From Agrococcus jenensis (GTDB taxonomy: Bacteria > Actinomycetota > Actinomycetes > Actinomycetales > Microbacteriaceae), in assembly GCF_003752465.1 (NCBI RefSeq), contig NZ_RKHJ01000001.1, forward strand, positions 1,922,001 to 1,986,000: DNA of 64,000 nt. The letters are read 5' to 3'. Below, piece by piece: positions 7,453 through 16,945 of this stretch. Every line of letters begins with the position of its first letter. Position 1 is the stretch's first letter. A program made the translations under genes and the position numbers. A model generated the notes under the pieces. The model saw only the letters and a program-made list of their open reading frames with translations, made no database searches and was not told the DNA's origin.

Positions 7453-7508
7453 GCCGCACGTCCGGGTACGCCTGTACGGCGACGGAAGCACGGACGCCCC
7501 GCGCCGAC

Positions 7509-7563
7509 TTGCGGTACCGAATTGTCGCCTGAACGCCGCCGGAGCGACCATTCGGTACCGCAA
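7509..7563. repeat. palindromic repeat unit, copy 1
   Basis: 20-bp arms 7509-7528 and 7544-7563 with one mismatch around a 15-nt loop (7529-7543). The arms read from the outside TTGCGGTACCGAATnGTCGC. The loop is almost identical to that of copy 2, showing that the whole unit was duplicated. Confidence 0.85.
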
Positions 7564-7590
7564 ACGGGGGAGCGCAGACGCCCCGAGCCG

Positions 7591-7649
7591 GTTTGCGGTA
7601 CGAAGTGGTCGCCTGTACGCCGCCGGAGCAACCATTCGGTACCGCAAAC
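7591..7649. repeat. palindromic repeat unit, copy 2
   Basis: 22-bp arms 7591-7612 and 7628-7649 with four mismatches around a 15-nt loop that matches copy 1 at 14 of 15 positions. The left arm is the more diverged one. Confidence 0.85.
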
Positions 7650-7657
7650 CGCACGGG

Positions 7658-7677
7658 GACCACTCGGTACCGCAAAC
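7658..7677. repeat. palindromic repeat, right half only (copy 3)
   Basis: A single right arm (GACCACTCGGTACCGCAAAC) matching the right arms of copies 1 and 2 without its partner arm or loop, so it appears to be a partial unit. Confidence 0.75.
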
Positions 7678-7842
7678 GGACGACGACCAGACGAACGACG
7701 ACCGACCGCCACCGCGACCGACGCACCCACGCGCCCCGCACGGCATCCCGGCCGATCCGCCCCGTCAGCCAGCCGCTCCGGCTAGCGAGAGACCCGGCCG
7801 ACCCGGCCGACCCGCAACCCCGCAACCCCGCGAAGCGACCTC

Positions 7843-10426: not shown

Positions 10427-11296
10427 GTGGGCGTCGCGGACAACACGCGCGAGATCGAGTCGACCATCGTCACCGACCTGCGGGAGCGGATGAGCTACGG
10501 CTCCTACCTCGGCCTCGACACGCTGCTCGCGTCGCAGCACCCGCGGAGCGAGCCGGAGCACCACGACGAGCTGCTGTTCATCATCCAGCACCAGTCGACC
10601 GAGCTGTGGCTCAAGCTCGTGATCCACGAGCTCGACGACGCCCGCGCGCTGCTCGCCGCGGACCAGCTCGGCGCGGCGCTCAAGCGCATCGCGCGGGTGA
10701 AGCACATCCAGGAGGTGCTGACGCAGCAGTGGTCGGTGCTCGCGACGCTCACGCCCACCGAGTACGTGCAGTTCCGCGGCGCGCTCGCGAGCGCCTCCGG
10801 CTTCCAGTCGGCGCAGTACCGCCTCGTCGAGTTCGCGCTCGGCAACAAGCACGAGCGGATGCTGCAGGTCTTCGCCTCGAACCCGGCCGACCACGCGGCG
10901 CTCGCGGCCGAGCTCGAGCGGCCGAGCCTCTACGACGAGTTCCTGCGCTTGCTCGCCCGCCGCGGCCACGCGGTGCCCGACGAGGTGCTCGACCGAGACG
11001 TGCGCAAGGCGCACGTCTTCAGCGAGCCGCTCGTCGACGTCTTCACGCGCATCTACACCGACGCCGGGCAGCCGGAGGGCGCGGAGCACTGGCGCGAGTA
11101 CGAGGCGTGCGAGGAGCTCGTCGACCTCGAGGACAACTTCCAGCTCTGGCGCTTCCGGCACCTGCGCACGGTCTCGCGCACCATCGGCATGAAGACCGGC
11201 ACGGGCGGCTCGAGCGGCACCGACTTCCTGCGCCGCGCGCTCGACCTCACGTTCTTCCCCGAGCTCTACGCCGTGCGGACGCGGCTCGAGGGGTGA
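10427..11296 (+). CDS. kynA: tryptophan 2,3-dioxygenase
   Basis: 289 residues, typical family length. This heme enzyme opens the indole ring of L-tryptophan to N-formylkynurenine. The distal-pocket segment FIIQHQSTELWLKL holds H55. The heme-ligating histidine is H245 in RFRHLRTVSRTIG, followed by the GTGGSSGTDFLR signature that binds the tryptophan carboxylate. GTG 10427 has a strong AAGGAGG. It overlaps the next gene by 4 bp (GTGA). Together with the amidohydrolase and kynureninase it forms a tryptophan-to-anthranilate route. Confidence 0.95.
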   Translation: MGVADNTREIESTIVTDLRERMSYGSYLGLDTLLASQHPRSEPEHHDELLFIIQHQSTELWLKLVIHELDDARALLAADQLGAALKRIARVKHIQEVLTQQWSVLATLTPTEYVQFRGALASASGFQSAQYRLVEFALGNKHERMLQVFASNPADHAALAAELERPSLYDEFLRLLARRGHAVPDEVLDRDVRKAHVFSEPLVDVFTRIYTDAGQPEGAEHWREYEACEELVDLEDNFQLWRFRHLRTVSRTIGMKTGTGGSSGTDFLRRALDLTFFPELYAVRTRLEG

Positions 11297-12324
11297 CCGC
11301 GCCGATCATCGCCCGCGTCGACCGCGCGCGCATCGGCGGCCGGTGGGTGACGGATGCGGTGGTCGAGCTGAGCGAGACCGGCATGCGGCTCGTGCCGCCC
11401 GACGAGGCGCCCGAGCGCGTCCGCCGGCACGTCCAGGGTGTGCTCATGCCTCCGATCACCGACGCGCACGTGCACCTCGGGCTGGCGGAGGCCGGGGTCG
11501 CGGCGCCGAGCGCCCTCGGCCGGGTGCTCGACCTCGGCTGGGCACCGGAGGCGCTGCCCGGGCTGAGCGCCGCGGCGCGCGGTGCGCACCGAGGGCTCGA
11601 CGTGCGCGTCGCGGGTCCGTTCCACGCCGCGGTCGGCGGCTACCCCTCGATGCGGGAGTGGGCGCCGCCGGGCGCGGTGGTCGAGCTGGCGGACGCGAGC
11701 GACGCCGCCCGCGCCATCCGGGCGCACTCGGCCGCCGGCGCATCCGTCATCAAGGTCGCGCTCAACGCCGAGGACGGACCCGTGCCCGACGACGCGCTGC
11801 TCGCCGCGATCGTGGCCGAGACGCACGAGGTCGGGCTGCTGCTCGTGGCGCACGTGCAGGGCCCCGGGCAGGCCGAGCGGGCGCTCCTCGCCGGGGTGGA
11901 CGTGCTGGCGCACGCGCCCTGGACGGAGCGGCTGAGCGATGACCTCATCGCCGCGGCCGCCGCGAGCCAGACCTGGGTGTCGACGCTCGCCATGCACGGC
12001 CGCGACGGCGACGACATCGCCTTCGCTCGGGCGACCGACAACCTCGCGCGCTTCGCCGCGAACGGCGGCGCGGTGGCCTACGGCACCGACCTGGGCAACG
12101 GCATCACCCACTTCGACCTCGACCCCAACGAGCTCGCCGCGCTGCGGCAAGCGGGGATCGAGGGCACCGCGCTCGTCGACGCGCTGCTGTGCGAGTGGCT
12201 GCTGCTCCCAGGGCCCACCGTGACGCGGCTGCCAGCCGACGTCATCGATGACGAGTCGACGATCGAGCACCTGCACCGAGCGGGCCCGCTGCCCGTGACC
12301 TGGTTCGACATGGAGGACGCATGA
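11293..12324 (+). CDS. amidohydrolase-superfamily enzyme, candidate N-formylkynurenine formamidase
   Basis: 343 residues. A complete amidohydrolase metal set is visible: H59-x-H61 in DAHVHLG, K154 (possible carboxylated lysine, SVIKVAL), H187 (LVAHVQG), H207 (DVLAHAPW) and D266 (AYGTDLGNG). The fold therefore looks catalytically competent. It lies between tryptophan 2,3-dioxygenase and kynureninase with 4-bp overlaps on both sides, exactly where the formamidase step is needed. No KynB (cyclase-like) or alpha/beta-hydrolase formamidase gene is in the cluster. Function is inferred from context; an imidazolonepropionase-like or other hydrolase remains possible. Confidence 0.75.
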   Translation: MTAPIIARVDRARIGGRWVTDAVVELSETGMRLVPPDEAPERVRRHVQGVLMPPITDAHVHLGLAEAGVAAPSALGRVLDLGWAPEALPGLSAAARGAHRGLDVRVAGPFHAAVGGYPSMREWAPPGAVVELADASDAARAIRAHSAAGASVIKVALNAEDGPVPDDALLAAIVAETHEVGLLLVAHVQGPGQAERALLAGVDVLAHAPWTERLSDDLIAAAAASQTWVSTLAMHGRDGDDIAFARATDNLARFAANGGAVAYGTDLGNGITHFDLDPNELAALRQAGIEGTALVDALLCEWLLLPGPTVTRLPADVIDDESTIEHLHRAGPLPVTWFDMEDA

Positions 12325-13556
12325 CCACCCCAGCAGACACCGCAGCGCTCGCCGCCGCGCTCGACGCCGCAGATCCGCTCGCGGCGCACACCGCCGCGTT
12401 CGTGCGCGACCCGAGCGTCGTCTCCTACCTCGACGGCAACTCGCTCGGCCGACCGCTCACGGCGCTCGAGCAGCGCTTCGCGCGCTTCATCGGTCACGAC
12501 TGGGGCACGCGGCTCATCCGCGGCTGGGACGAGGGCTGGATGCGCCGCCCCTACGACCTCGGCGACCGGCTCGGCGCGCTCGTCGGCGCGGCCGCCGGTC
12601 AGGCCTTCATCGGCGACTCGACCACCGTGCTGCTCTACAAGCTCGTGCGCGCCGCGGTCGACGCGCAGTCGGCGAGCGGTCGCACCGAGATCGTCATCGA
12701 GGACGACAGCTTCCCGACCGACCGGTTCATCGTCGAGGGCGTCGCCGCGGAGCGCGGGCTCGAGATCCGCTGGATCGAGGTCGACCGCGCGGCCGGGGCG
12801 ACGCTCGAGCAGGTCCGCGCGATCGTGGGGGAGCGCACCGCGCTCGTGCTGCTCAGCCACGTCGCCTACCGCTCCGGCCACGTCGCCGACGTGGCGGGCA
12901 TCACCGCCGCAGCGCGCGACGCCGGCGCGCTCGTGCTGTGGGACCTGTGCCACTCGGCCGGCGTCATCCCGACCGCGCTCGACGCGAGCGGCGTCGACCT
13001 CGCGGTCGGCTGCACCTACAAGTACCTCAACGGCGGCCCCGGCTCGCCCGCCTTCGGCTACGTGCGTCGCGACCTGCAGACGGCGCTCGCGCAGCCGATC
13101 CAGGGCTGGATGGGCGCGGCCGACGTCTTCGCGATGGCGCCGCGCTACGAGCCGGCGCCCGACCTGCGCCGCTTCGCGAGCGGCACGCCGCCCGTGCTCG
13201 CGACCGTCGCGCTGGAGGCGATGGTCGAGCTGCTCGAGCAGGTCGGCGTCGACGCGGTGCGCGAGAAGTCGGTCGCGCTCACCGACTTCGCCGAGGCGTC
13301 GCTCGAGGCGCACGTGCTCCCGCTCGGCGCGCGCCTCGCGAGCCCGCCGGCGGGGCCGACGCGCGGCAGCCACCTCACCGTGACGCATCCGGCCTTCCGG
13401 GAGGTCACCGAGCGGCTCTGGGCGCGCGGCGTCATCCCCGACTTCCGCGGCCCCGACGGCATCCGGGTCGGCCTCTCGCCGCTCAGCACCACGTTCGCCG
13501 AGGTGGAGACCGGCGTCGCGGCGATCGGCGAGGAGCTCCGGGCCGCGCTGGCATGA
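12321..13556 (+). CDS. kynU: kynureninase
   Basis: 411 residues, the usual size. This PLP enzyme cleaves kynurenine to anthranilate and L-alanine. The PLP lysine is K234 in GCTYKYLNGGPGSPAF, a kynureninase hallmark; the LWDLCHSAGVIP segment carries the PLP-binding Asp. ATG 12321 overlaps the amidohydrolase stop (ATGA). No kynurenine monooxygenase or 3-hydroxyanthranilate gene is nearby, so the pathway appears to stop at anthranilate here. Confidence 0.95.
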   Translation: MTTPADTAALAAALDAADPLAAHTAAFVRDPSVVSYLDGNSLGRPLTALEQRFARFIGHDWGTRLIRGWDEGWMRRPYDLGDRLGALVGAAAGQAFIGDSTTVLLYKLVRAAVDAQSASGRTEIVIEDDSFPTDRFIVEGVAAERGLEIRWIEVDRAAGATLEQVRAIVGERTALVLLSHVAYRSGHVADVAGITAAARDAGALVLWDLCHSAGVIPTALDASGVDLAVGCTYKYLNGGPGSPAFGYVRRDLQTALAQPIQGWMGAADVFAMAPRYEPAPDLRRFASGTPPVLATVALEAMVELLEQVGVDAVREKSVALTDFAEASLEAHVLPLGARLASPPAGPTRGSHLTVTHPAFREVTERLWARGVIPDFRGPDGIRVGLSPLSTTFAEVETGVAAIGEELRAALA

Positions 13557-16839: not shown

Positions 16840-16865
16840 AGGGCCGTCCCTGCGGGGGCGGCCCT
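16840..16865 (+). terminator. candidate terminator of rpsO
   Basis: GC-rich stem (AGGGCCGTCCC against GGGGGCGGCCCT) with a 3-nt loop 19 bp after the rpsO stop. A U-tract is missing, as is common in such genomes. Confidence 0.6.
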
Positions 16866-16939
16866 TCGTCGTCGCTCAGGGACCACCCTTCGTCGGTGCT
16901 CAGGGACCACCCTCCTTCGTCGCTCAGGGACCACCCTCC
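16865..16939. repeat. three tandem ~24-27 bp direct repeats
   Basis: Units 16865-16888, 16889-16915 and 16916-16939 share TTCGTC...GCTCAGGGACCACCC. Each contains a small AGGG-ACCA-CCCT dyad. A fourth TTCGTG fragment follows. They lie in the convergent gap between rpsO and the 16946 gene. Confidence 0.85.
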
Positions 16940-16945
16940 TTCGTG

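Follow-up and report, generated by a model that had tools for sequence, protein, structure and literature searches.

The genome of Agrococcus jenensis, a single contig of 2.96 Mb, contains a three-gene kynurenine operon in which a protein of the amidohydrolase superfamily (AHS) stands between tryptophan 2,3-dioxygenase (TDO) and kynureninase (the kynU product). The operon lies in a 64,000-nucleotide stretch of that genome, hereafter the window. Based on operon position and on the pattern of replacement in related genomes, we predict that the middle protein is a third, non-orthologous class of kynurenine formamidase (EC 3.5.1.9), a reading to which we give a probability of roughly 85%. With equal confidence we propose that it belongs to an independently evolved clade of short AHS proteins, found in Microbacteriaceae and in one or more further actinomycete families, which shares its function with KynB and the serine alpha/beta-hydrolase formamidases and has been exchanged with the latter within the family and even within a genus. 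Deformylation of N-formyl-L-kynurenine (NFK) in A. jenensis and many of its relatives is probably performed by a metal-dependent enzyme unrelated to both known formamidase families. Coordinates are window positions unless a locus code is given; G denotes a genome (G000 being the window's own), L a fetched locus, and f and g a family and a genus.

10427..11296, plus strand: tryptophan 2,3-dioxygenase, which makes N-formylkynurenine (PF03301, 215.7 bits; TIGR03036, 372.6 bits, under the cut-off of 390.7)
11293..11296, plus strand: 4-bp overlap GTGA between the start of the AHS gene and the stop of the TDO gene, read from the sequence
11293..12324, plus strand: AHS protein of 343 aa, the proposed kynurenine formamidase, with ligands H59, H61, K154, H187, H207 and D266
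12321..12324, plus strand: 4-bp overlap ATGA between the start of the kynureninase gene and the stop of the AHS gene, read from the sequence
12321..13556, plus strand: kynureninase (TIGR01814, 217.7 bits, under the cut-off of 246.4; Pfam Aminotran_5 and KYNU_C)

The 4-bp overlaps by which the original prediction had joined the three genes, and the coordinates it gave them, are exact. The TDO gene starts with GTG, and a GGAGG ends 5 nt upstream. TDO and kynureninase are both clear in Pfam, yet score slightly below the NCBIfam equivalog cut-offs. Together, the three genes would form a tryptophan-to-anthranilate operon. TDO would open the indole ring to give NFK; the middle protein, predicted to be a short amidohydrolase TIM barrel in which K154 (probably carboxylated) bridges a binuclear metal site, would attack the N-formyl anilide with a metal-bound hydroxide and so yield kynurenine and formate; kynureninase would then release anthranilate and alanine. 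An end of the pathway at anthranilate, as had been suggested, fits with the lack of any PF06052 match (3-hydroxyanthranilate dioxygenase, E ≤ 1e-3) in the window's genome, a search that did not extend to kynurenine 3-monooxygenase or anthranilate degradation.

The middle protein is 67-75% identical to its counterparts in four Agrococcus loci, its nearest named relatives. It carries the ligands HxH on strand 1, K on strand 4, a single H on each of strands 5 and 6, and D on strand 8. These six residues, numbered correctly in the original prediction, are invariant in all 51 aligned rows of the clade and in all 14 outgroup rows, and they align with the ligands of 8ihq. The structure model (pLDDT 95.7) is an AHS TIM barrel whose closest solved structures are N-acyl-amino-acid carboxypeptidases and ochratoxin amidohydrolases, at 18-22% identity over the fold. 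By its ligand set and modelled fold, the protein is assigned to the binuclear subtype of the superfamily. These solved relatives (3mtw Cc2672, 3be7 and 8ihq ADH3) differ from it in length, at 403-427 residues against 343, in the conserved loop GGYPSxRxWAP of the middle-protein clade, and in the predicted substrate.

Sequence searches against Pfam, NCBIfam and the PDB did not place the middle protein in any functional family, and its homologs are named in databases only as 'hydrolase' or 'imidazolonepropionase-like'. No Pfam family matches at E ≤ 1e-3. This includes PF01979, which some database homologs carry and for which the homolog in L051 reaches 19.8 bits against a curated cut-off of 25; we read the missing match as distance from the Pfam model and not as absence of the fold. 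The sole NCBIfam match is to the Xaa-Pro dipeptidase model NF051886, at 25 bits (33-42 bits in four relatives). With a cut-off of 500, this identity was rejected and the score taken as distant superfamily kinship. As had been noted from the sequence alone, the protein resembles neither known formamidase: neither PF04199 nor TIGR03035 matches it at E ≤ 1e-3, it has no alpha/beta-hydrolase Pfam match and no HGG in its sequence, and an AHS barrel is predicted for it. With KynB (TIGR03035, the PF04199 cyclase fold) it would share the proposed reaction, a binuclear metal site and a place in the kyn cluster, whereas sequence and fold are unrelated. Serine alpha/beta formamidases (eukaryotic KFase, e.g. 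4e11, and the bacterial HGGxW type) are found at this operon position in relatives, but have a serine triad and an alpha/beta fold in place of a metal-dependent TIM barrel.

To follow the gene through the family, we surveyed 150 Microbacteriaceae genomes, the window's own included, counting neighbours within 2.5 kb; all Fisher p values given here are uncorrected for relatedness. The AHS protein is strongly present (E < 1e-14) in 42 genomes, and in 48 at E ≤ 1e-3, while TDO was found in 52. This survey carried out the proposed check of co-occurrence with kynA and kynU, and the association is pronounced: TDO is present in 37 of the 42 AHS genomes vs 15 of the 108 others (p = 1e-17). In 33 of these 37, among them the window's genome, TDO, AHS and kynU genes are contiguous, on the same strand and in the same order. 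Since this arrangement is kept in 33 of 150 genomes, it is beyond chance. The other four (G041, G051, G064 and G121) have TDO-AHS with the recognised kynU elsewhere. Five AHS genomes lack TDO; in three the gene stands next to kynU (G004, G035 and G110) and in two neither gene is nearby, so that 40 of the 42 strong AHS genes adjoin TDO and/or kynU. Gene calls in fetched loci came from a heuristic script and plain open reading frames (ORFs), with AHS starts set mechanically, so overlaps in relatives are approximate.

The association extends beyond the family. Across 345 genomes of the class, the AHS protein matches 39 at E ≤ 1e-20. TDO and/or kynU lies no more than 1.5 kb away in all 15 loci scoring at least 293 bits and in one partial locus; six of the 16 genomes concerned also belong to the family sample. 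A locus was fetched for 14 of the 27 weaker rows, and in none of the 14 is TDO or kynU nearby. In a quick tree of 65 rows, with long branches and without L086, L090 and some duplicates, a single branch (SH-aLRT 99) separates 51 clade rows from the 14 weaker rows; the 51 come from 49 genomes, G078 and G142 contributing two rows each, and the two AHS genes away from kyn genes are among them. Another family of the class, f33, has four strong loci: one full operon, two TDO-AHS pairs, one of which (G456) has a stop inside the AHS gene, and one AHS-kynU pair with TDO on another contig.

The identity of the operon slot is suggested by genomes that lack the AHS gene. Of 15 such TDO genomes, eight are small, and their TDO is divergent, scoring 103-177 bits to that of the window. 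A window-type TDO is found in 44 genomes, at 371 bits or more in 43 of them and in two pieces (294 and 116 bits) in G106. Among these 44, 37 have only the AHS gene, six only an HGGxW-type alpha/beta hydrolase, a candidate formamidase, none has both and one (G084) has neither (p = 1e-6). The alpha/beta gene adjoins TDO or kynU in G026, G093, G116 and G066. This type takes the same place in relatives, and never together with the AHS gene; the operon slot thus probably holds a formamidase in the relatives, and the AHS gene fills it here. Genus g75 contains both states: the operon of G075 includes the AHS gene, and in G138 TDO is directly followed by kynU, with an alpha/beta candidate elsewhere.

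With the G026 alpha/beta protein as query, 72 of the 150 genomes match at E ≤ 1e-3, mostly through generic hydrolases, and 17 at E ≤ 2e-14. These strong matches occur in none of the 42 AHS genomes vs 17 of the 108 others, at a cut-off chosen after viewing the list, in which the first AHS genome (G075) appears only at E 4.8e-9. For strong matches, the absence of an alpha/beta formamidase alongside the AHS gene is borne out. Streptomyces-like loci have the alpha/beta hydrolase after kynU, in the slot between the TDO and kynU genes (L182), or as a fusion with kynureninase (L188). The fusion protein (L188:1679-3634, minus strand, 651 aa) joins a kynureninase (TIGR01814, 257 bits, above the cut-off) to a C-terminal alpha/beta-hydrolase domain with HGGWW, which ties the bacterial alpha/beta type to kynureninase. 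The original idea of a non-orthologous formamidase is thus supported by co-occurrence with TDO and by mutual exclusion with the alpha/beta type, and only partially by absence of KynB.

Several observations weigh against this assignment. The p values are inflated by kinship among the genomes. Two AHS genes (G034 and G109) stand apart from TDO and kynU, and in four of the 42 genomes (G139, G041, G106 and G141) the gene reads as broken or partial. The alpha/beta proteins are themselves candidate formamidases, proposed from their context, the HGGxW motif and the fusion to kynureninase. Among solved structures, their sequences match the carboxylesterase 9x6a best; the kynurenine formamidase 4e11 is matched only at E 2e-4 by the alpha/beta protein of L039, and not at all by that of L182. 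In two of the six genomes the alpha/beta candidate lies away from the operon (G138 and G009), and that of G009, in L177, is split over two frames. The G009 kynureninase (L036:4699-5924) is likewise split over two frames. The eight small genomes, whose kynU-TDO pair is divergent, lack both the AHS and the alpha/beta type, which shows that TDO need not have a recognisable formamidase next to it; one of them (G131) carries a 97-bit KynB-like cyclase. Lastly, a single PF04199 cyclase is encoded in the window's genome (G000:C1:2673227-2673847, minus strand; L001:1327-1992, minus strand), which scores 110 bits to PF04199, 80 bits to TIGR03035 (cut-off 223) and 58 bits to solved KynB (E 1e-14), and which could have formamidase activity. 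Of the 30 genomes with a cyclase of at least 70 bits, 16 have TDO, vs 36 of the 120 others (p = 0.02), and 14 have the AHS gene, vs 28 of 120 (p = 0.02), a mild enrichment in both cases.

That such a cyclase is the formamidase, leaving the middle protein another role in the operon, nevertheless appears improbable to us, even with its match to solved KynB and the mild enrichment. The best solved match of the A. jenensis cyclase is not KynB but 1r61, an unassigned metal-dependent hydrolase; it is a distant relative of KynB and isatin hydrolase, and its frame overlaps an NCS1/CytX-like permease rather than kyn genes. A canonical KynB elsewhere in this genome, the finding that was to count against the original prediction, is missing above the cut-off, leaving the one distant homolog at 80 bits. 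Among the 37 TDO+AHS genomes, 12 have no TIGR03035 match, 14 (the window's included) have a distant cyclase at 73-97 bits and 11 a weaker one; the expected absence of KynB from species with the AHS gene thus holds for the first group and is blurred in the others. The same-genus G049, estimated to be 100% complete, belongs to the 12 and has TDO and the AHS gene (L060:4729-5793), with no alpha/beta match either. KynB-like cyclases were also rejected as a general formamidase of the family: TIGR03035 matches 83 of the 150 genomes, above cut-off only in G019, and whether a genome has any such match bears no relation to the AHS gene, which is present in 25 of 83 genomes with a match vs 17 of 67 without (p = 0.59). 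A cyclase would, moreover, give no account of the conserved middle gene.

We consider it just as unlikely that the middle protein deformylates N-formylanthranilate after kynureninase has acted on NFK, so that the order would be TDO, kynureninase, deformylase. Kynureninases may accept formylkynurenine, and the AHS-kynU pairs without TDO would suit this order. However, TDO-AHS pairs occur without adjacent kynU, both in the four family genomes named above and in G456 and G464 (L170 and L171), and all 33 contiguous cases have the AHS gene in the middle, flanked by TDO and kynU. An accessory amide hydrolase, acting for instance on tryptophan or kynurenine in acylated or peptide-linked form while the formyl group is lost spontaneously or through another enzyme, would agree with the closest solved relatives and with the eight small genomes, but is least probable of all, as HGGxW alpha/beta hydrolases fill the same operon place in AHS-less relatives and never co-occur with the AHS gene.

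In four loci of small Microbacteriaceae (L037, L038, L042 and L045), the divergent kynU-TDO pair lies beside folate one-carbon genes; NCBIfam identifies folD, glyA (SHMT) and purU in L037, and SHMT and purU in L042, the other folate genes being named by eye. Between kynU and TDO, L038 has a patatin-like RssA-type gene (L038:5269-6120, minus strand; 195.6 bits, cut-off 272). Elsewhere in the window, positions 7484-7679 hold two 82-nt repeats (85% identical) and a partial third copy, with inverted repeats around TTGCGGTACCGAA / CATTCGGTACCGCAA, and positions 16855-16943, upstream of a gene that resembles polynucleotide phosphorylase (named by eye), hold a direct repeat in three copies with a period of 24 nt.

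Two kynurenine formamidase folds have been described, the step being known for unrelated folds, and KynB was presented as a new amidase fold of which only the metal chemistry was likened to the amidohydrolase superfamily (PMC4243253, available excerpt). PF04199 proteins, including an esterase, have been placed under the amidohydrolase superfamily name, a different use of the word (PMC5341072, available excerpt). The closest precedent is the 'amidohydrolase' MymD/MyeD of mycemycin biosynthesis, proposed by its authors to convert N-formylkynurenine to kynurenine; deletion of myeD abolished mycemycins A and B (PMC5867642, available excerpt). Compared by description only, it shares the proposed reaction with the middle protein and differs in length, 513 aa against 343. 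Nine TDO loci from seven genomes of the Streptomyces-like genus g115 contain no MymD-like partner (~513 aa) beside TDO: by eye, their five ORFs of 440-580 aa neither adjoin TDO nor resemble amidohydrolases. Among the matches listed, open-access titles and abstract openings offer no AHS TIM-barrel kynurenine formamidase other than the mycemycin proposal, and the available portions of PMC10608976 and PMC10781810 contain nothing on an AHS-type kynurenine formamidase.

Both the reaction and the superfamily are already known; what would be new is the isofunctional class. If our prediction is correct, it would fill a missing pathway step in many actinobacterial genomes and give this clade a substrate, and the operon would provide a clean example of non-orthologous replacement at a fixed place.
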